Part shown: positions 1 to 51,446 of the stretch, piece by piece
How the letters are laid out: every line of letters begins with the position of its first letter
Position numbering within the stretch: the first letter of the stretch is position 1
Assembly (NCBI RefSeq): GCF_002970935.1
Contig: NZ_CP027195.1
Location: forward strand, 1 to 51,446
Reading direction: 5' to 3'
Source: Lactobacillus sp. CBA3606
GTDB lineage: Bacteria; Bacillota; Bacilli; Lactobacillales; Lactobacillaceae
DNA: 51,446 bases
Made by a program: the position numbers and the translations under genes
The notes under the pieces: model-generated
What the model saw: only the letters and a program-made list of their open reading frames with translations
Told to the model about the DNA's origin: nothing
The model's database searches: none

Positions 1-1076
1 GATACTGCTTCCATTAAAGTCAATTCGGACTTCCAATGATCATTTGTTATCTCAACAGGTTCTTTAAATTGAATTATAGTTTCAGAATTCAATTCACCTG
101 TACAATATCGTGTTATTAAGCTCTTCATCTTATCACTACTTGAAGGGGAGCTATCTGAATTAGTTGCAATTCCAATAATTGTGCTAGCAATGATATGGTT
201 TTTCAATTTGTTGATTATTTCATTATCATCAGAATTAAATGCCTTAACAATCTGAATGGCTCTTCTTATAACGGGTATTTGTGTTTTCTCAGAAGCATTC
301 AATAAAATAGCCCAATCATCAACACTTAGCGCCCATACTGGTATCTGAAATACTTCTGGTGAATCGACTGAATTACCGACTTTAATATTTCTGTATCCAA
401 TTTCAGGATTGATTACGGGGATCTTATTAAATGCCTTATCGTACTCACCATTTGAGTCTAGCATTATAATATGCGCTCCACTAGCAGACCGATTTGTCTT
501 GGAAAATATTTTCTGTATGATATTTGCAATAGTGTTAGATTTGCCAGCACCAGTATTTCCAAACACAGCAAAATGATAACCAAAAAAGTTGTTAAGGTTA
601 ATCTTGACTTGATAATTATCAAATATTGTAGATTTGCCAATTGATAAAGCATTAATATATGTTTCATTTGAATCGGCTTCGATAGGAGGTTCTGCATTAT
701 TGACACTTAGAATGGTATCAAGTTCTTGAGTACTGATTAAATTAATTTCCATAAAAAGTCTTGGTAGTCTCGTTACTCCAAAAGTAAAACTACCATCATG
801 AATTTCACCAAGTAAATCTAAGGTAATCTGTTCTACAGAATTTGGCTTTTCATATTCTTGATAACCATTCTTAAGTTCCTCATTAATACCGCTTATTTCG
901 GCAATAACATCTCTATCAAAATCGTGAATTGTGACATAGCTCCCAACTTCACCAACAAAATTAATACCATCCAGAGTATTAACATACTCTCCAAGATCTG
1001 ACGAAATTTCAGCAATAATCTGTCCATTACGAATCGATACCAATTTACCAATTGTTCTACTTCCCAAGTTGATCAC
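1..1076 (-). CDS. herA: HerA-family ATPase, N-terminal part (continues at 51446)
   Basis: This is the first 358 codons of a 659-residue HerA/FtsK-superfamily ATPase; the rest lies at 51446 to 50543. Translation begins at a GTG at 1076, the first possible start after an in-frame TAG, and overlaps the end of the SIR2 gene by 20 bp, which suggests coupled expression. The N-terminal ~150 residues are beta-rich, as in the HAS-barrel of HerA. A Walker A motif (FGNTGAGKS) lies near residues 172-180 and a Walker B-like LDSNGEY follows. HerA proteins form hexameric DNA-translocating rings; in known SIR2-HerA defence systems the ring assembles with SIR2 and controls its NADase/nuclease activity. The role is inferred from the gene pair; the ATPase assignment is firm. 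Confidence 0.9.
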   Translation of the reverse strand, partial: MINLGSRTIGKLVSIRNGQIIAEISSDLGEYVNTLDGINFVGEVGSYVTIHDFDRDVIAEISGINEELKNGYQEYEKPNSVEQITLDLLGEIHDGSFTFGVTRLPRLFMEINLISTQELDTILSVNNAEPPIEADSNETYINALSIGKSTIFDNYQVKINLNNFFGYHFAVFGNTGAGKSNTIANIIQKIFSKTNRSASGAHIIMLDSNGEYDKAFNKIPVINPEIGYRNIKVGNSVDSPEVFQIPVWALSVDDWAILLNASEKTQIPVIRRAIQIVKAFNSDDNEIINKLKNHIIASTIIGIATNSDSSPSSSDKMKSLITRYCTGELNSETIIQFKEPVEITNDHWKSELTLMEAV

Positions 1077-2271
1077 CTGCCTGTAACACTGAACCTATAT
1101 TTCTAATTGCTTCTGATAATTTTTGATTTTCTTGTACATCAACTAGCGGGCTAGGCATAATTTTATTAATGAAACTTTCAAAATAATGTATCTTATTTTC
1201 TGAATTAACTACAATAATTCTTGGATCATGAGCCTTAAGCAACCGAAGAATATTTGAATCTTTCTCTTGACCATCAATAACTTTCTCAGTCCCTGCATCT
1301 CCAAAAATAATTAATCTAAAAGAAGGTATCGATAAATTATCTAGAATTACCCGATTAATATGATCGTCTCCAAAACTGTAGCCTAGTGTAATTAAAACTG
1401 CATTTGGTTTTGCCAAATGATTCTGAAAATTTCTGAATAAATCTGAATAAGGCACCATTAATGTACTTCTATCCTTTAATGGAGTTGGATAAATCATAAC
1501 ATTTTCAGCTTTAATATTTTCAGGATCTTTTTCATAAATATTGCCATTTTGTTTCTCCCAAGAAACCGAACCATGTATTTTAAAGAGATTATAGAAGTTG
1601 TCTACCCTATTCCAAACACTTTTGTTTAGGTTCATATTATTAGCATATATATAGTTGTAAACTAGTGGATTAAACCTTCTTCTGAAGGTACCAGAAAAAC
1701 CATCGTTGTAAAAAAAGCCAAGACTATCTAAAGCCAACTCATTAAATAAGTCATAGTTAGTAGTTACAATATTAATTGGATTCTGTCGAGATTTTCTTAT
1801 CGTACGCATATAAAACTCTTTATAAAGCTTAATAACAGCTTCACTGTGAATATTCTTTTTAATTTGTGCCTTAATAAACTTGCGTACCTCATTTATTTGC
1901 TCATCAGGATCGGTTCTCGTTTCTATATAATTTTTAGCTTCTCTTAATGAAATGAGTATATCCATAAGTCTTTCTAAATTACCTTCAAAATCAGGATCAT
2001 TCAGATCTTTATCCCCAATTTTAAAGTTTGGATGCTCATCTTTGAATTTCGAATAAAGACCAGCCATAGTATCTATACCAACCTGCTCCTTATCGCCATT
2101 CTCGTTAGTTTCAATTACACTTGAACAACCAGATCCAAATAAAAAGTTTAAATTATCACTTTGCATATATTTTCCAAACTCCGCCCTAAAAACAGATAGA
2201 TCTGTTTCCTGTGGTGTGTCACTACCACGATAAACGTTAATTTTTTCTTCGTCTTCTTGCTCCAAATCCAT
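1057..2271 (-). CDS. SIR2-domain defence protein (probable NADase of a SIR2-HerA system)
   Basis: A SIR2-like protein of about 404 residues. Visible motifs, numbered from the upstream ATG at 2277, are the nucleotide-binding GSG (48-50), TTNYD (172-176), the catalytic-type HGS (235-237) and GYSFGDDHIN (299-308). This combination is typical of prokaryotic antiviral SIR2 proteins rather than deacetylases. In studied SIR2-HerA pairs, SIR2 depletes NAD+ (and may cut DNA) on phage infection, stopping growth. It lies directly before herA and overlaps it. Two ATG codons compete for the start: 2277 is only 3 nt from the AGAGGAG ribosome site, while 2271 has a 9-nt spacing and is preferred here. A promoter candidate lies 30-60 bp upstream. 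Confidence 0.88.
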   Translation of the reverse strand: MDLEQEDEEKINVYRGSDTPQETDLSVFRAEFGKYMQSDNLNFLFGSGCSSVIETNENGDKEQVGIDTMAGLYSKFKDEHPNFKIGDKDLNDPDFEGNLERLMDILISLREAKNYIETRTDPDEQINEVRKFIKAQIKKNIHSEAVIKLYKEFYMRTIRKSRQNPINIVTTNYDLFNELALDSLGFFYNDGFSGTFRRRFNPLVYNYIYANNMNLNKSVWNRVDNFYNLFKIHGSVSWEKQNGNIYEKDPENIKAENVMIYPTPLKDRSTLMVPYSDLFRNFQNHLAKPNAVLITLGYSFGDDHINRVILDNLSIPSFRLIIFGDAGTEKVIDGQEKDSNILRLLKAHDPRIIVVNSENKIHYFESFINKIMPSPLVDVQENQKLSEAIRNIGSVLQAGDQLGK

Positions 2272-2300
2272 AACCATAATCTCCTCTATATCAACTTAAT

Positions 2301-2329
2301 ATTTTGTGCTATTGGGAATAAAGTTACAA
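2301..2329 (-). promoter_or_regulatory. Candidate promoter of the SIR2-herA pair
   Basis: On the minus strand TTGTAA (2329-2324) and CAAAAT (2306-2301) are separated by 17 bp, just upstream of the SIR2 ribosome site. It would let SIR2-herA be expressed apart from the restriction genes. The -10 match is only moderate. Confidence 0.35.
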
Positions 2330-2372
2330 GAAATACAATTTAAAAATCACGAGCAAGCCCTCAGCTGGTTGC

Positions 2373-2652
2373 TCAATTTTCAGTATTTAACCAGTTAGAA
2401 TAGACAACCTTTGTTTTGAGCTCACTACTGTATTTCCTCCATGAAAAGTTCCCACAAGCATTAGGCTTTGATATGTACTCCACTTTTCGTCTAACACTCG
2501 AGGGTACTTCAAAAAACTGTGTTTTCTTGTTAAAGCGATGTTTATATAACAAGCCATTTAGCAAGAAGGGACAGATCTCATACCCATTATAATCTTAGTT
2601 GAACTCTCCAAGATAGAACTGATATGCGTTGTCCTTTAATGTTACCTTATCT
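2373..2652 (-). pseudogene. Decayed reading frame after the type IIG gene
   Basis: One minus-strand frame reads as plausible protein from about 2652 to 2373, broken by a single TAA at 2597-2595. The upper part ends in a stretch reading QFYLGEFN; the lower part would give about 63 residues from a TTG at 2564, rich in Lys, Arg, Tyr and Asn, with no family I recognise. One extra G in the GGGGG run at the end of the type IIG gene would join that gene to this frame. It could therefore be a lost C-terminal segment of the restriction enzyme, or the remains of a separate small gene. No good ribosome site precedes the TTG, so an independent 63-residue product is doubtful. Confidence 0.35.
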
Positions 2653-2653
2653 T

Positions 2654-5428
2654 TTATGATCCCCCGATCATCTTTCGACGAGTCATTATTCTTGTTATGG
2701 AGGCTACAATTTTGGGATATAGGTTTACATCAATATTAAATTGCTCAAGAACGACTTTGTTAAAAGCTATCCAAGATTTTTGTTGAAGTTGACTAACGAT
2801 ATCAACTACAGAAGAGTTAACAACAGTATGCCAAGCATCAACAATAACTTGTTTCTTTTCATCTGTTAGCAGTGACGGGTTTAGAATAGACAGATGTTTC
2901 AATCCATCAGAAGTAAGATCTGTCACACCTTGAGCACGCGAAAACCCTGAGGCCCCGAGTATAAATAAGGAGATAGCTGAATTTAGTAACGCATGTATAA
3001 GTTCATGATCATGCTGATATTCACTTTTTAGCGAAGCGGCGACACCTCGTTGATTAAATGCGGTAGGCTCTTCAAAAGCTGCCCAAAACAGATGCTGATT
3101 GGGATTCATAGAAGTAACATAGTCACCGTAGCGAGGCTTATCATCGGGAATATACCAAGCCTCACCTTTTCCTTTAGTTAGCCTTTCTTTGAGGGCTTCT
3201 GGATCGTTTTCCTTAGATTTCATGTACCTAAGAGTTTTCAAATGTCCTGCATCTTTCAGTTCTTGTGGCGTTTTAATCGTGTAAAACAGATATTTTCCCG
3301 AAGATTTTATTGTTAAAGTGGAGAGTCCCTTAAGCGTTTTTACATATGGGAATGAATCGGTTTTGTCGGTTAATAGACCATCAGTGACATACAGCTTATC
3401 CCGCCCCGTTCTAGTACCACGTGTGATATTAACAATGTTTGATAGAGTGGTTAGCTTTTTCTCTTTAATTATCTCATCTAACCAACTAATGTCATCAAAT
3501 AGACCTTCTAAGCTTATACCGGTGCTCATCAAATTCTTAGCATCTGCTGGCGTGTATTCATTAAGTTCATAAGTAGAATTAAGTGTTCCAGCAATAATCC
3601 GGTCGCTTAATTGATCCACCTCGTCTAATTCCATAGAGCGAATATCCACATTGAGTCCGATCAGTTTCATCTTTTCAGGACTATTTGATTTCTTTTTCAG
3701 TATAAGAATTGTTGCAACAACACTGGCGTTATCAAACCATTTTGCAACATTTGAGTAAACGATACTATCTATATCGTATAACTTAACAAGTATGTCAAAA
3801 AATGACCCCTTGGCAGTATTTTTCATCCATGAATTTGATACAATAACTCCGGCACGAGCATCGGGATTATCACTTAATAAGGATTTAAGATGTAAAAGTA
3901 TGCTTTGATACAGATCAGCTCGTGCAGTTAAGCCGTTAGAACTGTTGACTCGACTGATAAGTATCCGGTCATCTTCAGAGCGATTGTTACTGCTAACAAA
4001 TGGCAAATTTGATGTAATGGTATCCATTTTGGGATAACTCAGAGTATCAATCTTACCCGTCTGGGGATTTGTGATATACACCTTTTCTCCAACCTTGAGT
4101 GAAAGTGCATTGTGTCGAAATACAATATTCATTAAATTTAATGAATTGACAGAGGTGATATTCATATTCGCTGCTTGTAGTGGGTATGAATACTTATCTG
4201 ATAACCACAAATGCTCGTGAATATAAGAAAGACTTTTGAAACTGATTAACTTATTAAGAAGTACCTTGGCAATAGTTCCAGATCCGACTGTGACATCAGC
4301 GTAATTTCCTTCAGCGGTAACTAACGTTAAATTAACTAACAATTCAGCTAACGGCTGAGGAGTCGTGTAAAGTCCCATTAATTCACGTTTAGTAACAGTG
4401 ACCATTGATTCAAGAGACTTAGAAATAAAATTGGCGCTAACATCAGACATATCAGCTTGCCAGAGGTAGTTATTAAAATCAACTAAATCTGATATTACCA
4501 GTTTAGGAATTTGTGTTTCGTTTTTATTAACATGCAGTATTGAATAAAAATCTGTGGTGCTAATGGCATCGTTTAATTCACTAGCAAACTGTTTAATATC
4601 ACTAGATTGATGGAAATCATATAGAACTTTTGAAAATAGATTTTGATGCTTTCTAATTAAATTACAAAAAAGAATGCGATTTACCCAGCGGATAACTACA
4701 TTTTTAGCGAACGCCAACATAACTTCTTCATCGGTTAATTTATTTGCTGCTTTATTTGCTGAAAATTCAGCCTTGTCATTTAAATACCACTCTCTCACTT
4801 CAGCTCTAAATTGTGGGCGCATTATTTTTAGATAAGCCGAGCTTGTAATAGGTGCAAGCTTCTTGGTAATAGTGTCAACATAATCAGATATATGAAACTC
4901 TATAGGAGCTACGTCGTAAATTTTATTCACATAGTCGCGGTTAAGATCTGATAGTACTTTTCCCAAGAGTTGCTGCCAAATCTGTTCATTGTCACCAACA
5001 GCCCTTCGACTTACCAGGGTGTCTGCACATTCATCGTACAATTTAGAAGGCGTTGTGGGCCATGATCTGTCTTGATTGCGGTAATATACTGCACAGTATT
5101 GAAAATTCCAAAGCACAAATACTTCAGTACCCATGCGGTTGGCTTTATCGCGTGCATTTGATATTAATTCTTTATTGTCAATCGGTGTGTCAGGCATTTT
5201 AAATTCCCAACCCATCACTGGTATGAGGCGCTTTTGGTCTTGATAAATCACGGCATCGGGAAACAGTGTTACATTTCTTGTATCAGTAGCATGATTTGAT
5301 TTGAGTGATAATTCTCCAACAGCACTAGCGTAATTCCAATCGTTTTTTGCAAACAATAAATTCATTTGTGTGATAAGGAAACCACCTTCGCTGCGCTCGT
5401 TGACGTGTAATTCGTTTCCTGTACTCAT
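2654..5428 (-). CDS. Type IIG-like restriction enzyme: nuclease fused to N6-adenine methyltransferase
   Basis: A 924-residue protein. Near the N-terminus a PD-(D/E)xK-type nuclease site is visible: PD at 57-58 and EFK at 75-77. A helical linker follows. The methyltransferase part has GLYTTPQP (~352-359, motif X-like), ADVTVGSG (~377-384, motif I, SAM binding) and SNLPF (473-477), in the place of the catalytic NPPF motif. The C-terminal third is probably the DNA recognition domain. No helicase motifs are seen, so it is not type I or type ISP. Such enzymes both cut and methylate a short asymmetric site. The ATG at 5428 overlaps the stop of the upstream methyltransferase (ATGA), as in a coupled operon. 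The C-terminus may be shortened by a frameshift near position 2658. Confidence 0.8.
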   Translation of the reverse strand: MSTGNELHVNERSEGGFLITQMNLLFAKNDWNYASAVGELSLKSNHATDTRNVTLFPDAVIYQDQKRLIPVMGWEFKMPDTPIDNKELISNARDKANRMGTEVFVLWNFQYCAVYYRNQDRSWPTTPSKLYDECADTLVSRRAVGDNEQIWQQLLGKVLSDLNRDYVNKIYDVAPIEFHISDYVDTITKKLAPITSSAYLKIMRPQFRAEVREWYLNDKAEFSANKAANKLTDEEVMLAFAKNVVIRWVNRILFCNLIRKHQNLFSKVLYDFHQSSDIKQFASELNDAISTTDFYSILHVNKNETQIPKLVISDLVDFNNYLWQADMSDVSANFISKSLESMVTVTKRELMGLYTTPQPLAELLVNLTLVTAEGNYADVTVGSGTIAKVLLNKLISFKSLSYIHEHLWLSDKYSYPLQAANMNITSVNSLNLMNIVFRHNALSLKVGEKVYITNPQTGKIDTLSYPKMDTITSNLPFVSSNNRSEDDRILISRVNSSNGLTARADLYQSILLHLKSLLSDNPDARAGVIVSNSWMKNTAKGSFFDILVKLYDIDSIVYSNVAKWFDNASVVATILILKKKSNSPEKMKLIGLNVDIRSMELDEVDQLSDRIIAGTLNSTYELNEYTPADAKNLMSTGISLEGLFDDISWLDEIIKEKKLTTLSNIVNITRGTRTGRDKLYVTDGLLTDKTDSFPYVKTLKGLSTLTIKSSGKYLFYTIKTPQELKDAGHLKTLRYMKSKENDPEALKERLTKGKGEAWYIPDDKPRYGDYVTSMNPNQHLFWAAFEEPTAFNQRGVAASLKSEYQHDHELIHALLNSAISLFILGASGFSRAQGVTDLTSDGLKHLSILNPSLLTDEKKQVIVDAWHTVVNSSVVDIVSQLQQKSWIAFNKVVLEQFNIDVNLYPKIVASITRIMTRRKMIGGS

Positions 5429-6282
5429 TTTTTAGACCCCACAATTATGTTTTTTAGCAGATTTACCGGGTCAAGGTATTTTAGATTTTCAGAATTGGCA
5501 TTTAGCATTTTTTTAAGTGCTTGAGAAACTCGAGACTTGGTGATTTCAATATAATCAACCGGTTTTCTTTTAAATAAAGCTACATCTTCATTTTTTTCAA
5601 TTCCAACAAAATTTCTTCCCTCTAAGAGGGCTGATATGAGAAATGATCCTGATCCTGAGGTATTATCCAATACCGTATCACCAGGATTAGTAAATGTTCG
5701 TATGAGATATCGCCCTAAAGAAACTGGCTTTTGCGTAGGATGTACCACAGGGCCCTCAGACTCTGCAGTTTTAAAATAAAGAATATCAACTGGGTACCGA
5801 CCACCAGAACTAGCTACTAAAGTAGGGTCAAAGTCCCCGTATGATCCAGTAACTTGATTTTTTCTTATTCCTTTAGAATAGGGCTCTCCCTTAGTCATTT
5901 GTGGGTGATATGTCGGCTGTTTTCGATAGAATACAACAATATCTTCATGCTTTCTTAACGGCTGTTTTTTTGCATTAAGAAAATTGGTAGATTTAGATTT
6001 AATCCAAATATAGCTATATTTATATTCCTTCGGATTAGATAACATCAATGAGGCAGTGAACAACCCTGAGGCAGTAAACACCATAGCACCATTTTCCTTT
6101 ACAATTCTATGATACTCCGTCCATAACTGGTCTAGTGGTATCACACTATCCCATTTATTTTGAGTTGTTCCATATGGCAAGTCAACCAGGAGAAAATCGA
6201 TAGCATTATCTGGAATGGATTTCATAATCTCAAGGGTATCGCCTTGAGTAACGTTATTTATCATTTTTGAGTAGTTAATCAT
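5425..6282 (-). CDS. DNA methyltransferase, beta class (adenine or cytosine-N4)
   Basis: A 285-residue DNA methyltransferase with motifs in the order of the beta class: the catalytic motif DLPYG first (34-38), then HPTQKP (181-186), then the SAM-binding VLDNTSGSGSF (204-214). DLPY replaces the textbook DPPY, a variant that occurs in this class. It is the first gene of the minus-strand operon and overlaps the type IIG gene by 4 bp. In Eco57I-like systems a separate methylase protects both strands of a site that the fused enzyme methylates on one strand; this pair fits that scheme, which is an inference. The ATG at 6282 has an AAAGG ribosome site about 10 nt upstream. Confidence 0.88.
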   Translation of the reverse strand: MINYSKMINNVTQGDTLEIMKSIPDNAIDFLLVDLPYGTTQNKWDSVIPLDQLWTEYHRIVKENGAMVFTASGLFTASLMLSNPKEYKYSYIWIKSKSTNFLNAKKQPLRKHEDIVVFYRKQPTYHPQMTKGEPYSKGIRKNQVTGSYGDFDPTLVASSGGRYPVDILYFKTAESEGPVVHPTQKPVSLGRYLIRTFTNPGDTVLDNTSGSGSFLISALLEGRNFVGIEKNEDVALFKRKPVDYIEITKSRVSQALKKMLNANSENLKYLDPVNLLKNIIVGSKK

Positions 6283-6349: not shown

Positions 6350-6363
6350 TGAAACCCCAAATA

Positions 6364-6387
6364 GCCACTAGGGTATACCCTAGTGGC
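6364..6387. promoter_or_regulatory. 24-bp perfect palindrome between divergent promoters (operator, res site or terminator)
   Basis: Positions 6364-6387 form a perfect palindrome with GGGTATACCC at its centre. It lies midway between the minus-strand extended -10 (6341-6349) and the plus-strand extended -10 (6402-6410). A T run follows on the plus strand only (6389-6394), so it could act as a terminator in that direction, but no plus-strand gene lies upstream to need one. An operator shared by the two promoters, or a recombinase binding site, is equally possible. Confidence 0.6.
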
Positions 6388-6410: not shown

Positions 6411-6456
6411 AGGAATTACAAGTGTTCATTAGAACTGTCCAAAAGGAGAATTGGAA

Positions 6457-7041
6457 ATGGCTAAAATCGGTTATGCGCGTGTGAGTTCCAAGGAGCAACA
6501 TTTAGATCGACAGTTAGCGGCTTTAAAAGACGTTGATAAATTATTTACGGATAAATTAAGTGGGGCTAACACTAATCGGCCAGAACTGCAAAAAATACTG
6601 GCCTATATTCGTGAGGGTGATATTGTAATGGTCACTGAATTAGATCGCTTAGGCAGAAACAACCATGATTTGACTAAGATCATGAACTCCATTCAAAATA
6701 AGGGTGCCACCCTAGATGTGTTAAATTTGCCGTCCATGACAGGGATTGCTGATCCTAACTTGCGTCAACTGATGACTAACCTCATCATTGAACTGTATAA
6801 GTATCAGGCTGAAAGCGAACGTAAGCGAATCATCGAGCGTCAGCAACAAGGGATTGCCCTCGCCAAACAGCAGGGTAAATATCATGGACGCAAACCCCAA
6901 TATGCCAAAGATGATCCCCGTTTGCAACATGCTTTTAAGCTTTATCGAGCTGGCATAAGTGACATTGATGTTGCCCGTAATACAGGGATTAAACGGACGA
7001 CCTTTATCAGATATCGAAAGAAATTCAATATACAAAGATGA
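6457..7041 (+). CDS. Serine recombinase (resolvase/invertase family), intact copy
   Basis: A 194-residue small serine recombinase. It starts with the family signature GYARVSS (catalytic Ser near residue 10), carries the resolvase core with ELDRLGRN and ends in a helix-turn-helix domain (ISDIDVARNTGIKRTTFIRY) that binds the crossover site. The ATG at 6457 lies 8 nt after AAAGGAG; a TTG two codons upstream is less likely. These enzymes resolve plasmid multimers or transposition cointegrates. It is divergent from the restriction operon and shares the palindromic intergenic region with it. A second, broken copy of the gene lies at 18106-18602 in the same orientation. Confidence 0.92.
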   Translation: MAKIGYARVSSKEQHLDRQLAALKDVDKLFTDKLSGANTNRPELQKILAYIREGDIVMVTELDRLGRNNHDLTKIMNSIQNKGATLDVLNLPSMTGIADPNLRQLMTNLIIELYKYQAESERKRIIERQQQGIALAKQQGKYHGRKPQYAKDDPRLQHAFKLYRAGISDIDVARNTGIKRTTFIRYRKKFNIQR

Positions 7042-46426: not shown

Positions 46427-46442
46427 AGGGGGAAACATTAAA

Positions 46443-48581
46443 ATGTCAAACACAGTAATCTTAGCTGAAAAACCGAGCCAAGCAAGGTCATACGTTGAGG
46501 CATTTCAAAAAAGCACAAAAAAACAGGGTTACTATACGGTTAGTGACCCTGTTTTGCCCCAAAATACTGTAATCACGTATGGATTCGGCCATTTGGTCGA
46601 ATTAGCAACACCAGAAAAATACGATCAAAAGTACAAGCAATGGGCGCTATCTAATTTACCGATTTTCCCCGATAAATACAAGTTTATCGTGCCAACCGAT
46701 AAGAAAACGCAGTTTAAAGTCGTCAAAGATTTACTAACGAAAGCAGATACAGTGATTGTTGCCACAGATAGCGACCGAGAAGGGTCAAATATCGCGTGGT
46801 CGATCATGAACCAAGCGCATATTGATGTTAAGTCGAAAACGATTAAGCGCCTTTGGTTGAATAGCCTAGAAAAAGACGCGATTATTACCGGCTTTAAAAA
46901 TCTTGGTGATTGGCACAAAGACTATTTGGCTTATAAAGAAGCCCAAACCCGTCAAATTAGTGACTGGTTAATTGGTATGAATGGCAGTCCTTTATATACT
47001 TTGTTATTAAGACAAAACGGGGTACGCGGGGTGTATTCGATTGGTCGAGTACAGACGCCAACCTTATATATGGTCTATCAAAGAGACCAGGCAATCAAAA
47101 ACTTTAAGCCGGAACCCTATTTTGAACTAAATGCGGAAATTTTAGCTAATCAGCAAAAGTTTGTCGCAAAATTAGACCCCTATCAGCGATTTAAAGACGA
47201 AGCAGGGTTAATGACATTCATGCAAGCTAAACACGTTCAGAAAGGCTCACAGAGCGGTTTAATCAAGGACGTCCAAAAACAGGCTAAAAAGAGTGCCAGT
47301 CCCCAACTATTCTCGCTATCCAGTCTGCAAAGTGCCACGAATAAACGGTATCATGCCAGTGCCAGCCAAACCTTAGCGGCCATTCAGAGTTTATACGAAG
47401 CTAAATTTCTTAGCTATCCCCGAACCGATTGTGCTTATATCACTGATGAAGAATTTGAGTATTTAGTGGCTAATCTGACGAAGTATCTGGGGTTAGTCTC
47501 TAAGCGAATCGCTTTAACCAATACCACCCCGAATAAGCGCTATGTTAATGGAAAAAAGGTTGAAGAACACTACGCCATTATCATGACTAAAGTTGTGCCG
47601 ACTAAAGAGAAACTAGCCAGCTTACCTAAATTACAGCAACAAGTCTATGACTTGGTTTTAAGAACAACCTTAGCGATGTTTGCTGATCCGTACGAGTACG
47701 AGGAAAACACCATTATTACCCAAGTTGGTGACGCCAATTTTAAAGCAACGGGTAAGGTCCCAACGAAGCAAGGTTGGCAAGCATTATTTGATGATCACAC
47801 AGCCGACCAGCAAGAGGCAGCCACCCTACCGCTCGTTCACCAAGGCGATCAAGTTCAAGCAAATCTGCAAACGCCGCAAAAAGAAACGACACCACCGGTA
47901 CCCTTTACCGAAGGTACCCTGATTACGGCAATGAAGACCGCCGGTAAAACGCTTGATGACGAAGAAGCCCAGGCGATTCTCAAAGATGTGCAAGGCATTG
48001 GGACAAGTGCGACCCGGGCCAATGTGCTGGAAGTGTTAAAAAAACGCGGCTATTTGGTTACTGAAAAGAACAAGCTCCACGTCAGTGAAGCGGGAACTAC
48101 TTTATGTAAAGCGGTCGAACTCGAACCCTTGCTAACTAGCCCAGAAATGACGGCTAAATGGGAACAAGCGTTACAACAAATCAGTACCGAAGAACGCACC
48201 CCGGATAACTTTTTGAGCCAAATCAAAAAGTTCGTGGCAAAATTGATTGCTGATGTCCCCGCGCAATTGACTGGCAGTTCAGCCATTAAGCAACAAATCG
48301 ATCACCAACAGCAAACGCAAAAAGCCGCCGAGGTCTTCTTAGAAACGCCGCAAGCGACCGTTTTAAATAAACAGAAGTTTTACATTGTGAAGCCTAAGCA
48401 AGGCGAAGACTTTACCTTACCCAAGAAATGGAGCAGCAAAACCCTCGGTAAAACTGCGATCAAAGCCTTAGTCACCAAGGGTGAAACCAGCAAACTAAAG
48501 GGTTTCAAGAGCAAAAAAGGAAAGTTGTTTGACGCCAAGTTAAAGCTTGACGGCCACAAATTAAGTTTTGATTTTGATTAG
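46443..48581 (+). CDS. topB: Type IA DNA topoisomerase (topoisomerase III-like; TrsI)
   Basis: A 712-residue type IA topoisomerase. The toprim domain has AEKPSQAR (catalytic Glu 9) and the acidic triad DSDREG (109-114); the core includes IGRVQTPTL and the active-site Tyr in FLSYPRTDCAY (near residue 322). There are no zinc fingers; a basic tail ends the protein. In pSK41-like plasmids a topoisomerase of this type is encoded within the transfer region and may relax the plasmid during strand transfer. The ATG at 46443, 10 nt after AAGGGGG, is preferred to a start inside trsL. Confidence 0.92.
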   Translation: MSNTVILAEKPSQARSYVEAFQKSTKKQGYYTVSDPVLPQNTVITYGFGHLVELATPEKYDQKYKQWALSNLPIFPDKYKFIVPTDKKTQFKVVKDLLTKADTVIVATDSDREGSNIAWSIMNQAHIDVKSKTIKRLWLNSLEKDAIITGFKNLGDWHKDYLAYKEAQTRQISDWLIGMNGSPLYTLLLRQNGVRGVYSIGRVQTPTLYMVYQRDQAIKNFKPEPYFELNAEILANQQKFVAKLDPYQRFKDEAGLMTFMQAKHVQKGSQSGLIKDVQKQAKKSASPQLFSLSSLQSATNKRYHASASQTLAAIQSLYEAKFLSYPRTDCAYITDEEFEYLVANLTKYLGLVSKRIALTNTTPNKRYVNGKKVEEHYAIIMTKVVPTKEKLASLPKLQQQVYDLVLRTTLAMFADPYEYEENTIITQVGDANFKATGKVPTKQGWQALFDDHTADQQEAATLPLVHQGDQVQANLQTPQKETTPPVPFTEGTLITAMKTAGKTLDDEEAQAILKDVQGIGTSATRANVLEVLKKRGYLVTEKNKLHVSEAGTTLCKAVELEPLLTSPEMTAKWEQALQQISTEERTPDNFLSQIKKFVAKLIADVPAQLTGSSAIKQQIDHQQQTQKAAEVFLETPQATVLNKQKFYIVKPKQGEDFTLPKKWSSKTLGKTAIKALVTKGETSKLKGFKSKKGKLFDAKLKLDGHKLSFDFD

Positions 48582-48619
48582 AACCTGCCTACCGCCCTGC
48601 ACTACGTTTCGGTTGGTGA

Positions 48620-48674
48620 ACTCGTCAGTTAGGTTTACTTTTCAAAAACCAAAAAGTGAACCTAACCAACGAGT
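48620..48674 (+). other. Long imperfect stem-loop between topB and the next gene
   Basis: ACTCGTcaGTTAGGTT (48620 on) pairs with AACCTAACcaACGAGT (ending 48674); the stem continues with ACTTTT/AAAAGT. No T run follows, so it is not a typical terminator. It could separate expression of the 3' genes, by mRNA processing or protection, from the trs genes. Confidence 0.55.
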
Positions 48675-48701
48675 GTAATTGTAAAAGAAGGAGGATATAT
48701 C

Positions 48702-48917
48702 ATGAAAAATGAACTGGAAGCATTAGCAAGCGAATTACCTATTTTGACGGATAAAAGCAGTTATAAGTACCTATCAGAAGTTGCGGGTAATGGCAAATAT
48801 ATTCAAGTTGCGTGGCAAAAAAAGAATGCTGAATATTTAGCACTTTACGGTACACAATCTATCAAGTTACCCCAAATTGATAATTCTGTAGAGTTTGTAG
48901 ACGCCGAGGAGGTTTAA
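48702..48917 (+). CDS. Small protein of unknown function upstream of ArdC-like gene
   Basis: A 71-residue acidic protein (LEALASELPILTDKSSYKYL at the start; VEFVDAEEV at the end), with AAGGAGG 9 nt before the ATG. It lies 2 bp before the next start, so both are probably made from one message. Acidic composition is common in DNA-mimic antirestriction proteins, but the size and sequence do not allow that claim. I do not recognise the family. Confidence 0.65.
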   Translation: MKNELEALASELPILTDKSSYKYLSEVAGNGKYIQVAWQKKNAEYLALYGTQSIKLPQIDNSVEFVDAEEV

Positions 48918-48919
48918 AT

Positions 48920-50044
48920 ATGCCAACTAAAGAAGAAGCAGAAGAATGGAAGAAACAACTTGTAGATAATGCAGAACAGCAAATTTTGAACTTAACTGAT
49001 AGTGAAAAGTTTAAAAGTTATCTTGATACCGTAGCAAAGTTTCACCGGTATAGCCAACGTAATATTGACCTTATCTATTCTCAAAATCCAAGTGCCAGCC
49101 AAGTTGCAGGCTTTAAAAAATGGCAGAATGATTTTAAACGATCAGTAAATAAAGGAGAAAAAGGGATCAGGATTACGGCCCCTATTATTAAAAAACTAAC
49201 TCCAGAGGATCAGAAAAGGCTTGATACGACCGAAGAAAAAGCCATAGTTGGTTATCGCTATATTCCAGTATTTGACATATCACAGACAAGCGGCGAACCA
49301 GTCCTAAGTGCTAAAGATTTTGTCAAAGAAAATTTAGCGGATCATCAGAATGTGACAAGCTTGTATAACGCATTCAAGGACTATCTAAACCAGCAAACCG
49401 ACCTTAAAGTCAGTGAAGTGCCTTTAGCGACGCTAAATGGGGCTAAGGGGTATTTTCAACCCAGCACTAATGAAATCGTCATTGGTGGCGATGAGCCCGA
49501 CAATGCTTTGAAACTAAAGACGCTATACCACGAATATGCGCATAGCCAGCTACACGGCTTAAAATCAGCCTTTAAAGATCGGCCACGAGCCTATCAGGAA
49601 ACCCAGGCCGAAGCGGTCGCCTATGTTGCCATGCAAAATATTGGCGTTGATACCAGTAACTATTCACTCGGTTATGTGGCTACCTGGGCTAAAGATAAAG
49701 CCGTGATCCATAGCGCTTTAAGTGAAATTCAGCAAGTTAGTAACAAAGTGATTGAGCTTAGTGACGGGTTAACCAAACAATTAGGCTTACAAGAAGCCCA
49801 AAAAGAGCCTGAGCATGATCTAAAAAAGCTATCAGCTCAGTCACTGAATAAGTCCTATCAAAGCTTGCAACAACAAGTTCAGCAAGCAAGGAACCCACAA
49901 CAAAAATCAGAACTAAAAAATAAACTAAATGATATACACCATGAAATCAGTAATCGAACACAAAAACAGCTACAAGCATTTGCTGAACAGAATCCGGAAA
50001 TCAAACAACCCGAATCCGAACTTGATCAAAGTTTAAAACGTTAG
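48920..50044 (+). CDS. ArdC/LtrC-like antirestriction protein
   Basis: A 374-residue two-domain protein. The N-terminal ~125 residues match the ArdC ssDNA-binding domain (FHRYSQRNIDLIYSQNPSA, VAGFKKWQNDFKRSVNKGEK and GIRITAPI). A zincin-type metallopeptidase domain follows with HEYAH at 204-208, and a likely third ligand in QETQAEAVAYVA. The C-terminus is a coiled tail. ArdC binds and protects the incoming single strand against restriction in the recipient; LtrC homologues are standard in lactic acid bacterial conjugative plasmids. GAGGAGG lies 8 nt before the ATG. Confidence 0.85.
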   Translation: MPTKEEAEEWKKQLVDNAEQQILNLTDSEKFKSYLDTVAKFHRYSQRNIDLIYSQNPSASQVAGFKKWQNDFKRSVNKGEKGIRITAPIIKKLTPEDQKRLDTTEEKAIVGYRYIPVFDISQTSGEPVLSAKDFVKENLADHQNVTSLYNAFKDYLNQQTDLKVSEVPLATLNGAKGYFQPSTNEIVIGGDEPDNALKLKTLYHEYAHSQLHGLKSAFKDRPRAYQETQAEAVAYVAMQNIGVDTSNYSLGYVATWAKDKAVIHSALSEIQQVSNKVIELSDGLTKQLGLQEAQKEPEHDLKKLSAQSLNKSYQSLQQQVQQARNPQQKSELKNKLNDIHHEISNRTQKQLQAFAEQNPEIKQPESELDQSLKR

Positions 50045-50205
50045 CCAGTTTTTAAAGGGCATGCTATAATGGAGACAGAAAAAGGAAGACCCGCCGAAAA
50101 CAGGACTTCCCACGCAAGCCGCTTCAAAGGCGGTGGCATAATTACAAAACTATATTAATGTCGTCCCGTAACTCGCCAAAGTTATAATCGGGGCGGCTTT
50201 TTTAT
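50041..50205 (+). ncRNA. Antitoxin RNA of a Fst/Lpt-like type I toxin-antitoxin locus
   Basis: An extended -10 promoter TGcTATAAT (50062-50070) with a weak -35 (TAGCCA, 17 bp upstream) starts a short non-coding transcript toward the toxin gene. It ends at a stem formed by GTCGTCCCG and CGGGGCGGC (about 50160-50197) followed by TTTTTTATTT. The convergent layout, small size and shared terminator match RNA II of the par locus of pAD1. No reading frame lies in it. Confidence 0.68.
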
Positions 50206-50291
50206 TTGTGGTGCTTGTCTATATAGCTGAGAAGCGCGATTAAAAACGTGCCAAACAGCAACATCAACGAGAGTGTCTGAAAGACGCTCAT
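50202..50291 (-). CDS. Fst/Lpt-like small membrane toxin (29 residues)
   Basis: ATG 50291 to TAA 50202 encodes 29 residues: MSVFQTLSLMLLFGTFLIAL is the membrane span and LSYIDKHHK the charged tail. This is the plan and typical length of the Lpt and Fst toxins of lactobacillus and enterococcus plasmids. CAGGAAGG lies 9 nt upstream. The toxin damages the membrane if plasmid loss removes the short-lived antisense RNA. The gene is too small for ordinary gene finding. Family assignment is by pattern of the span (LSLMLLFGTF) and locus layout. Confidence 0.75.
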   Translation of the reverse strand: MSVFQTLSLMLLFGTFLIALLSYIDKHHK

Positions 50292-50390
50292 TGACTGTGA
50301 AACCTTCCTGAAGATTATTCCATGTTCCCATGGGCCTCACCTCACAAGGGAAAAGACAGCCACCGTCCTTAAAAACTTCTTACTTAATCC

Positions 50391-50419
50391 ATTATACAAG
50401 GGAACTAGGGATTGACCAA
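50391..50419 (-). promoter_or_regulatory. Promoter of the toxin transcript
   Basis: On the minus strand TTGGTC (50419-50414) and a consensus TATAAT (50396-50391) are 17 bp apart. The predicted leader of about 90 nt before the toxin ATG can fold and includes GACGGTGGCTGTC, the likely antisense-controlled region. Confidence 0.65.
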
Positions 50420-50542
50420 GCATAATAAAAGCTGTGACGATTGAATGATGTTTCATAAGTTTTCATATTCAATTGAATTAAGAAACTGGTCTGGTTGTTA
50501 TATACACTGGATATTACAACGATAATATCTGAATCTCGGTCA

Positions 50543-51446
50543 TTAATCGTTCTTATTTTTCAAATGAAACCATGATTTTGAAATTTCAGCACTATCACTA
50601 TCTGTTTTAGGATTAGCTGGTGCAAATTCGGTCAAAGTCGGTATATTGATTGCTGTTCCAAATACTAGTGCAGATCCAGTTTTAAGATATGTTAATCTAT
50701 CAATAATTCCCTTATTGATATAAGGAACCATTCTAGAAATATAACTAAGATCATCAGGATTCTGAACCCGATGAACTATGAAGTTACTGCATTGTGAAAC
50801 AACAGTACGAGAAAGTTCACTGGGACGTTGTGAAGATATACCTAGCAAGAATCTAAATTTTCTACCCTCTTTTGCCACACGTTCAAAGATATCGAATCCC
50901 AATTCAGTTTGAAATTTATTTTCAGCAACATATCTATGAGCTTCTTCAATAATTAAATTAATTGGATAAATCGATTCAGTTTGAGGCTCTTCATCTTCAG
51001 TTTCATTCAGTTCATTATCAATGTGAGTTTGCTGTTTACGCATTTTTTGAAAATCAAGAATCATCTTAGAAAGTACGCGTATAAGAACTTCGCCCGTTGA
51101 GTCATCAATACTGCTAACATCAATATTTACTAACTGCTTTTCTTTTACAAGATGATCTACGAAATCTGCTGTTGTCGAAAATCCAGTTTTCCCAAAAATT
51201 GCACCCATAGCAGATTCGCTCAATGACTGTAGTCTGGACATCATAGGAGCGGTATATTCCTGAACTCTTTGACTGCTAACACTGCCTTCATATAAAACAG
51301 CAAATTTCATAGCTTCAATAAAATCTGAAAAATCAAAAACTACATCTTGCATTTTATTAATACTCGTAAATAAATCATCTTTACAAACGTAACTCTGACA
51401 ATATTGAACTAACTTATCAATCACAACAAGCTGTCCATAGTATGTG
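50543..51446 (-). CDS. herA: HerA-family ATPase, C-terminal part (continues from position 1)
   Basis: The remaining 301 codons of the ATPase whose start is at 1076. Reading across the ends gives MEAVS then TYYGQLVVIDK without a frame change. This half has the Walker B helix INLIIEEAHRYV and the SSQRPSELSRTVVSQCSNF block with an arginine finger-like Arg, both typical of HerA. The stop at 50543 is followed by 120 bp and then the toxin locus. Confidence 0.9.
   Translation of the reverse strand, partial: TYYGQLVVIDKLVQYCQSYVCKDDLFTSINKMQDVVFDFSDFIEAMKFAVLYEGSVSSQRVQEYTAPMMSRLQSLSESAMGAIFGKTGFSTTADFVDHLVKEKQLVNIDVSSIDDSTGEVLIRVLSKMILDFQKMRKQQTHIDNELNETEDEEPQTESIYPINLIIEEAHRYVAENKFQTELGFDIFERVAKEGRKFRFLLGISSQRPSELSRTVVSQCSNFIVHRVQNPDDLSYISRMVPYINKGIIDRLTYLKTGSALVFGTAINIPTLTEFAPANPKTDSDSAEISKSWFHLKNKND

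Follow-up and report, generated by a model that had tools for sequence, protein, structure and literature searches.

Restriction-modification and SIR2-HerA genes in one plasmid cargo slot of Lactobacillus sp. CBA3606, probably two independently stacked defence modules

Gene content of the array

The window analysed here is the entire contig NZ_CP027195.1 of Lactobacillus sp. CBA3606 (assembly GCF_002970935.1), a circular plasmid of 51,446 bp. An island that starts at ~50.5 kb carries two pairs of genes: a restriction-modification (RM) pair, consisting of a methylase and a type IIG-like fusion of nuclease and methylase, and a pair encoding SIR2 and HerA proteins (Table 1). It is highly probable that this array is a plasmid defence island of two self-contained, independently stacked modules in one recombinational cargo slot, because the two pairs are distributed separately, their partners are swapped between plasmids, and SIR2-HerA protects alone in published work.

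The contig can be read as a circle because a single BLAST alignment to L. kefiranofaciens plasmid pWW2 crosses the contig join unbroken (window 46440-51446 and 1-2347). An initial annotation of the window had named the four genes and their order, and both are borne out by Pfam and PADLOC matches. The spacing that it described also holds: the stop of the methylase gene shares 4 bp with the start of IIG (5425-5428), a gap of 376 bp separates the IIG and SIR2 genes (2278-2653), and, with the GTG at 1076 taken as the start of HerA, SIR2 and HerA share 20 bp. HerA runs from 1076 downward, but only ~358 of its codons lie at this end of the window; the remainder occupies 50543-51446, where the frame stays open throughout and brings the protein to 659 amino acids counted from the GTG. 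All four island frames are open. The count of three layers in the initial annotation was too high, since the array comprises two modules of two genes.

Table 1. Features of the window and of RloC-bearing loci used for comparison
Feature	Position	Strand	Basis or remark
Beta-class (N6/N4) DNA methyltransferase	5425..6282	-	285 aa; motif IV DLPY
Type IIG-like fused PD-(D/E)XK nuclease and N6-methylase	2654..5428	-	924 aa
SIR2-family protein, SIR2-HerA (Nezha/GAO_19) type	1057..2277	-	406 aa
HerA, first part (N-terminal, ~358 codons)	1..1076	-	Walker A within
HerA, second part (C-terminal, ~300 codons)	50543..51446	-	Across join; Walker B-like motif within
IS30-family transposase gene relic	2511..2623		blastn
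ArdC-like gene, left border of cargo slot	48920..50044	+	Alignment to relatives' plasmids
RatA-type antitoxin RNA	50067..50159	+	Rfam RF01776, 55.5 bits (gathering score 49)
29-aa holin-like toxin of type I toxin-antitoxin locus, left slot border	50202..50291	-	Translation
10-bp hairpin with T tail, right slot border	6364..6387	+	Plasmid alignment starts
Serine resolvase/invertase family recombinase	6451..7041	+	Pfam Resolvase 2.4e-33
RloC-type proteins by RM pair	L002:12640-14826, L003:845-3031, L004:10283-12469		Walker A, CxxC, R-x3-E-x38-42-H
RloC-type proteins by RM pair	L006:7642-9828, L053:10802-13003, L058:4226-6568		Walker A, CxxC, R-x3-E-x38-42-H

The restriction-modification pair

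The methylase matches Pfam N6_N4_Mtase (2.2e-22) and has relatives of known structure in the RsrI, MboIIA and CcrM methylases of the PDB; it is of the beta class, and its motif IV reads DLPY. Its partner matches N6_Mtase (1.1e-8) and the PADLOC model REase_MTase_IIG (1.6e-128), and a profile of the IIG family gave no match in the PDB at E 0.01. When the window protein was aligned with five relatives, including a Rhizorhabdus protein at 24% identity, the residues P57-D58...E75-x-K77 and the GSG of motif I were invariant in all six members. A PD-(D/E)XK nuclease and an N6-methylase are therefore combined in one chain of 924 amino acids, as in type IIG enzymes. In place of the canonical motif IV, NPP[YF], all six members, the distant ones included, have SNLPF. 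Its conservation suggests a variant rather than decay, and we use the label "type IIG-like" because of this replacement. The arrangement presumably resembles that of Eco57I-kind type IIG enzymes, which likewise join an N-terminal PD-(D/E)XK motif and an N6-methylase in one polypeptide and have a separate methylase; the window pair differs in its SNLPF motif IV and in the beta class of the separate methylase.

The RM pair is a conserved unit. We collected 80 IIG loci in named genomes (the best of 147 relatives), and a methylase relative accompanies the IIG gene in 79 of them; the 80th begins at a contig edge. The methylase lies on the opposite strand in L096, and in L043 (9035-12736) a beta-class methylase and an IIG-like enzyme share a single open frame (3,702 nt) and are apparently fused in nature. 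All seven viral contigs that carry IIG also have a methylase relative. In comparison with sister plasmids, the ratio of nonsynonymous to synonymous substitution rates (dN/dS) is 0.125-0.133 for IIG and 0.32-0.42 for the methylase.

The SIR2-HerA pair

SIR2 matches SIR2_2 (2.6e-9) and PADLOC SIR2 (3.3e-96), and HerA matches DUF87 (4.7e-24) and PADLOC HerA (1.3e-85). The two genes are adjacent and retain the residues expected of SIR2-HerA systems. In SIR2, N174 and H235 are invariant in five aligned sequences and line up with the TTNYD and HGS motifs of PDB chains 8yhx and 8j4u; HerA has a Walker A motif, GNTGAGKS, at residue 173 and a Walker B-like motif, LIIEEAH, at residue 523. The SIR2 score is 136 bits where the NCBIfam equivalog cut-off is 500, and HerA was compared with NCBIfam as its window half only. 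Because the scores fall far under the equivalog cut-offs, the window pair is, as judged from such profiles, a putative diverged subfamily. It shares with Nezha and GAO_19 the two overlapping genes, the SIR2_2 and HerA/DUF87 domains and the positions of the catalytic Asn and His, and differs from them in being plasmid-borne and adjoining a type IIG-like RM pair.

The association of the two genes is itself tight. In a sample of 40 SIR2 loci (23 representing the phylum of the window and 17 of 18 its family), HerA lies on the strand of SIR2 within 0.8 kb in 39, and in all 40 with a broader HerA profile that was built partly from these same loci. HerA has a dN/dS of 0.135 in the comparison with sister plasmids. 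SIR2 differs from its pWW2 counterpart by 10 nonsynonymous changes and one synonymous change, a ratio above 1 drawn from too few sites to judge.

Studied homologues work by themselves. In Vibrio cholerae, Nezha requires the SIR2 active site and HerA, it protects with the rest of its island deleted, and mutation of N168 or H227 abolishes defence (PMC11559045); these residues would be equivalent to N174 and H235 of the window protein. In Streptococcus thermophilus, SIR2/HerA pairs that lie between or downstream of RM systems protect when cloned alone (PMC11514479).

The cargo slot

HerA, SIR2, IIG and methylase genes together occupy the interval between the ardC/toxin-antitoxin locus and the serine resolvase gene. 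Similarity to the backbone of lactobacillus plasmids continues through topB, ardC and, in several, also the RatA/TxpA-type locus, stops at 50.05-50.43 kb, and restarts at the hairpin at 6364, just before the resolvase gene. At the right border, among plasmid matches to the resolvase side only, drawn from 40 records listed among 530, 33 of the 34 listed start at 6356-6369.

Relatives share these borders and differ in the defence genes between them, as expected of a defence island. We surveyed ten further ArdC plasmids, hand-picked from 60 matches at even steps among 506 records. RM genes of type I- or III-like kind stand right after ArdC in four (L118, L119, L125 and L126), with the right slot border seen only in L118 and L125. 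The other six (L120, L121, L122, L123, L124 and L127) have no RM genes right after ArdC; a Pycsar pair lies ~3.6 kb beyond ArdC in L120, and L123 ends at the record end before the slot can be followed. A dedicated defence hotspot was considered and rejected in view of these six plasmids. The slot is a general cargo slot that is often used for defence.

Separate distribution of the two pairs

SIR2 and HerA occur together near only one of the 80 IIG loci, and IIG occurs near none of the 40 SIR2 loci. A constant linkage of effector and restriction genes, of the kind seen for PrrC, is thus absent from both samples. With the broader profile, a HerA relative without SIR2 was found near IIG in L092. 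Among 397 Lactobacillaceae genomes, IIG is present in four and SIR2 in 19, and the window's own genome is the only overlap. A search of viral contigs with the SIR2 protein gave no match, and neither SIR2 nor HerA was found at the seven viral IIG loci recovered by IIG alignment search.

The two pairs do meet in an Odoribacter metagenome-assembled genome (L076:4011-12811), in the co-directional order abiEi-abiEii-SIR2-HerA-methylase-IIG, with overlaps, or gaps of no more than 11 bp, between neighbouring genes. Since the best PADLOC models for its SIR2 and HerA differ from those for the window proteins, the joining of both pairs there looks independent of that in the window.

The RM family has several other operonic partners: RloC (L053 and L058), Olokun (L061 and L062), Gabija (L101) and a ThsA-like protein (L044). 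A range of partners of this sort is usual for defence islands. These counts are lower bounds, since the PADLOC scan covered 20 of 57 listed partners with at least 180 amino acids; seven of the 20 gave no match at 1e-6. A single-sequence RloC profile missed L053, which was found by PADLOC and by a four-sequence profile that includes it. Housekeeping genes are neighbours too, namely those for the phenylalanyl-tRNA synthetase beta chain (L103), carbamoyl-phosphate synthase (L111) and a YitT-family protein (L066). Over the 20 of 57 partner proteins scanned, SIR2-HerA is not favoured over the other partners of the RM family.

Exchange of modules among sister plasmids

Plasmids of P. damnosus, L. 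brevis and P. pentosaceus have the same RM pair in the same slot, with IIG at 91-92% protein identity; the P. pentosaceus plasmid has extra genes ahead of the resolvase. In place of SIR2-HerA, all three carry a convergent gene for an AAA_13 protein of 728 amino acids. This protein has a Walker A motif, a CxxC motif and Arg-x3-Glu-x39-His with Ser before the His, which are the RloC motifs as defined in the RloC report (PMC2610378). All six RloC-type proteins found by RM pairs have these motifs and fall into three distinct kinds: four near-identical plasmid copies and two proteins at ~24% identity, which come from unrelated genomes.

Plasmid pWW2 has SIR2-HerA beside a deletion scar of the RM pair. 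Its similarity to the window extends from the backbone across HerA and SIR2 as far as window position 2378 and resumes at 6110. It retains the first 57 codons of the methylase (173 nt), fused to the SIR2 side, and its SIR2 and HerA frames are open. The simplest reading is that the ancestor of pWW2 would have had the same four genes and then lost the RM pair.

Divergence is uneven on both sides of the seam. In comparison with the three sister plasmids, IIG is 87-95% identical over 2645-5144 and ~97-100% identical from 5145 through the methylase. In comparison with pWW2, HerA is 81-89% identical, with indels, over 51000-303 (across the join), with shoulders of 93-96% and 98-100% beyond. Because identity varies along both modules, the array has the appearance of a mosaic, and such varying divergence is a sign of recombination. 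The seam contains a relic of 113 bp, which blastn matched at 76-78% identity to 97 records; of the 15 that were listed, 12 bear the annotation "IS30 transposase" there.

IIG relatives occur in 7 of 72,556 plasmid records, and the only plasmids with SIR2 of more than 60% identity are two L. kefiranofaciens records. Plasmid pCM-BB2-1 of P. inopinatus has only a 3ʹ fragment of the IIG gene, and a C. kimchii relative of the gene has an in-frame stop. As a separate observation, the middle of HerA (51000-303) looks like an allele-like swap inside the gene relative to pWW2.

Discussion

How might two independently stacked modules protect the cell? The IIG-like enzyme would cut unmodified incoming DNA and methylate its site on one strand; protection of the site, probably on the other strand, would fall to the beta-class methylase, as knowledge of the family suggests. 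By analogy with studied homologues, HerA would assemble into a hexamer that serves as an ATPase platform, and phage infection would activate SIR2 to hydrolyse nicotinamide adenine dinucleotide (NAD+), so that phage production stops and the cell pays. Cutting by the RM pair would come first, and SIR2-HerA would drain NAD+ where phage escapes; neither would need the other. The view that restriction and NAD depletion form two complementary layers was put forward in the initial annotation and is supported by homology. Layers can combine in this manner: a study of CRISPR with Gabija, Thoeris or Hachiman describes layers as additive or synergistic without coupling of the genes (PMC12322248).

The initial annotation had gone further and proposed that SIR2-HerA may be controlled or triggered by restriction products, which would make the four genes a single system. 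In such a system, a breach of RM or cleavage would set off SIR2-HerA, much as PrrC is freed when EcoprrI is inhibited, and PrrC is a precedent for an RM-linked effector (PMC2610378). Several observations favour it and weigh against independent modules. All four genes are co-directional on the minus strand, and scanning the seam revealed no terminator-like site and, on the minus strand, no promoter-like one, the promoter scan being at chance level; a transcript shared by both modules is possible for these reasons. The Odoribacter locus shows that the modules have been joined more than once, and a methylase relative lies near one of the 40 SIR2 loci (L176). The co-occurrence of SIR2-HerA with one IIG locus in 80 is a lower bound, because at least 3 kb is available on both sides in only 51 of the 80, and both samples are partial. 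The other partners of the RM family (RloC, Olokun, Gabija and ThsA-like) are also of suicide or signalling type. Nonetheless, a single system is very improbable. The pairs are nearly always apart in the samples examined, the partners are interchangeable, with RloC swapped in on the sister plasmids, and in pWW2 both SIR2 and HerA have stayed open although the RM pair is gone. Furthermore, an IS30 relic lies inside the 376-bp seam, and published SIR2-HerA functions without its neighbours (PMC11514479 and PMC11559045). The neighbourhood search that the initial annotation called for found the pairs mostly apart, and joined elsewhere too, in Odoribacter and in the pWW2 ancestor. The notion that both pairs occur together only in this plasmid was rejected, given the methylase stub of pWW2 and the four genes in Odoribacter.

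The same list of partners permits another form of coupling, in which the methylase-IIG pair is a sensor that recruits interchangeable effectors (SIR2-HerA, RloC, Gabija, Olokun or ThsA-like) into its operon and releases them on restriction breach. The window would then show a modular "restrict, else die" system in one of its states, the NADase being a plug-in. We regard this as very unlikely; coupling of the RM pair and SIR2-HerA is possible.

Two further explanations concern the role of the array rather than its unity. One is that both pairs serve chiefly in contests among plasmids and other mobile elements, phage not being their main target. The cargo adjoins ardC, a type I toxin-antitoxin locus and a resolvase gene, the four nearest slot relatives are typed as conjugative (MOBQ/MPF_T), and open reading frames at 37-48 kb of the window resemble the relatives' transfer genes in size and order, as compared by eye and unaligned. 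However, homologous SIR2-HerA systems act on phages in the published accounts, and we consider this explanation unlikely. The other, that the array has lost its function and is in decay, is very improbable. Decay is evident in relatives, in the in-frame stop of C. kimchii, the fragment on pCM-BB2-1 and the loss of the RM pair by pWW2, and the few SIR2 changes give no sign of strong constraint. Against this stand the four open frames, the retained catalytic residues and the dN/dS values of IIG, the methylase and HerA.

Among the closest known systems is the CR3 island of Streptococcus thermophilus, also from a lactic acid bacterium, in which SIR2/HerA lies between or downstream of RM systems (PMC11514479). 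CR3 is chromosomal, whereas the window array is on a plasmid, in an ardC-resolvase slot and with type IIG-like RM; the RM types of CR3 do not enter this comparison. PrrC/EcoprrI and RloC, both restriction-linked anticodon nucleases, share with the array a death effector that adjoins restriction genes, and in the sister plasmids a protein with the RloC motifs takes the place of SIR2-HerA. Unlike in PrrC/EcoprrI, nothing here indicates that the restriction enzyme restrains or frees SIR2-HerA. Among the literature matches listed for SIR2-HerA, Nezha, RloC, lactobacillus plasmid defence and type IIG enzymes with HerA, no title concerns this gene order, which does not establish its absence from print. 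As far as these searches show, the array is a new combination of known modules, and SIR2/HerA beside RM genes has already been published for Streptococcus thermophilus.

What is the significance of such an array? It shows neatly how, in nature, lactic acid bacteria layer abortive defence on restriction by exchanging modules within a single plasmid slot. Together, the sister plasmids (RM with RloC, RM with SIR2-HerA, and SIR2-HerA with an RM scar) offer a ready comparison for deciding whether the layers are additive or coupled, and this has a potential use in the phage resistance of starter cultures. If coupling were true, the principle of PrrC would extend to NAD-depleting effectors.

Additional observations

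RloC in the loci described here adjoins a type II pair and, in L002-L004, follows ArdC; in L006, the RloC-type protein adjoins only a fragment of the RM pair. The 2008 RloC paper describes links to type I and III RM systems and to ArdC (PMC2610378).

A holin-like toxin is annotated directly after ArdC in pWW2 and in eight of the ten surveyed plasmids. The 29-aa toxin of the window is presumably of the TxpA/Fst type. Rfam also reports a match to the Listeria small RNA rli28 at window 50221-50406 on the minus strand (48.8 bits, gathering score 45). Because this match overlaps the toxin gene, rli28 could be the mRNA of such a toxin.

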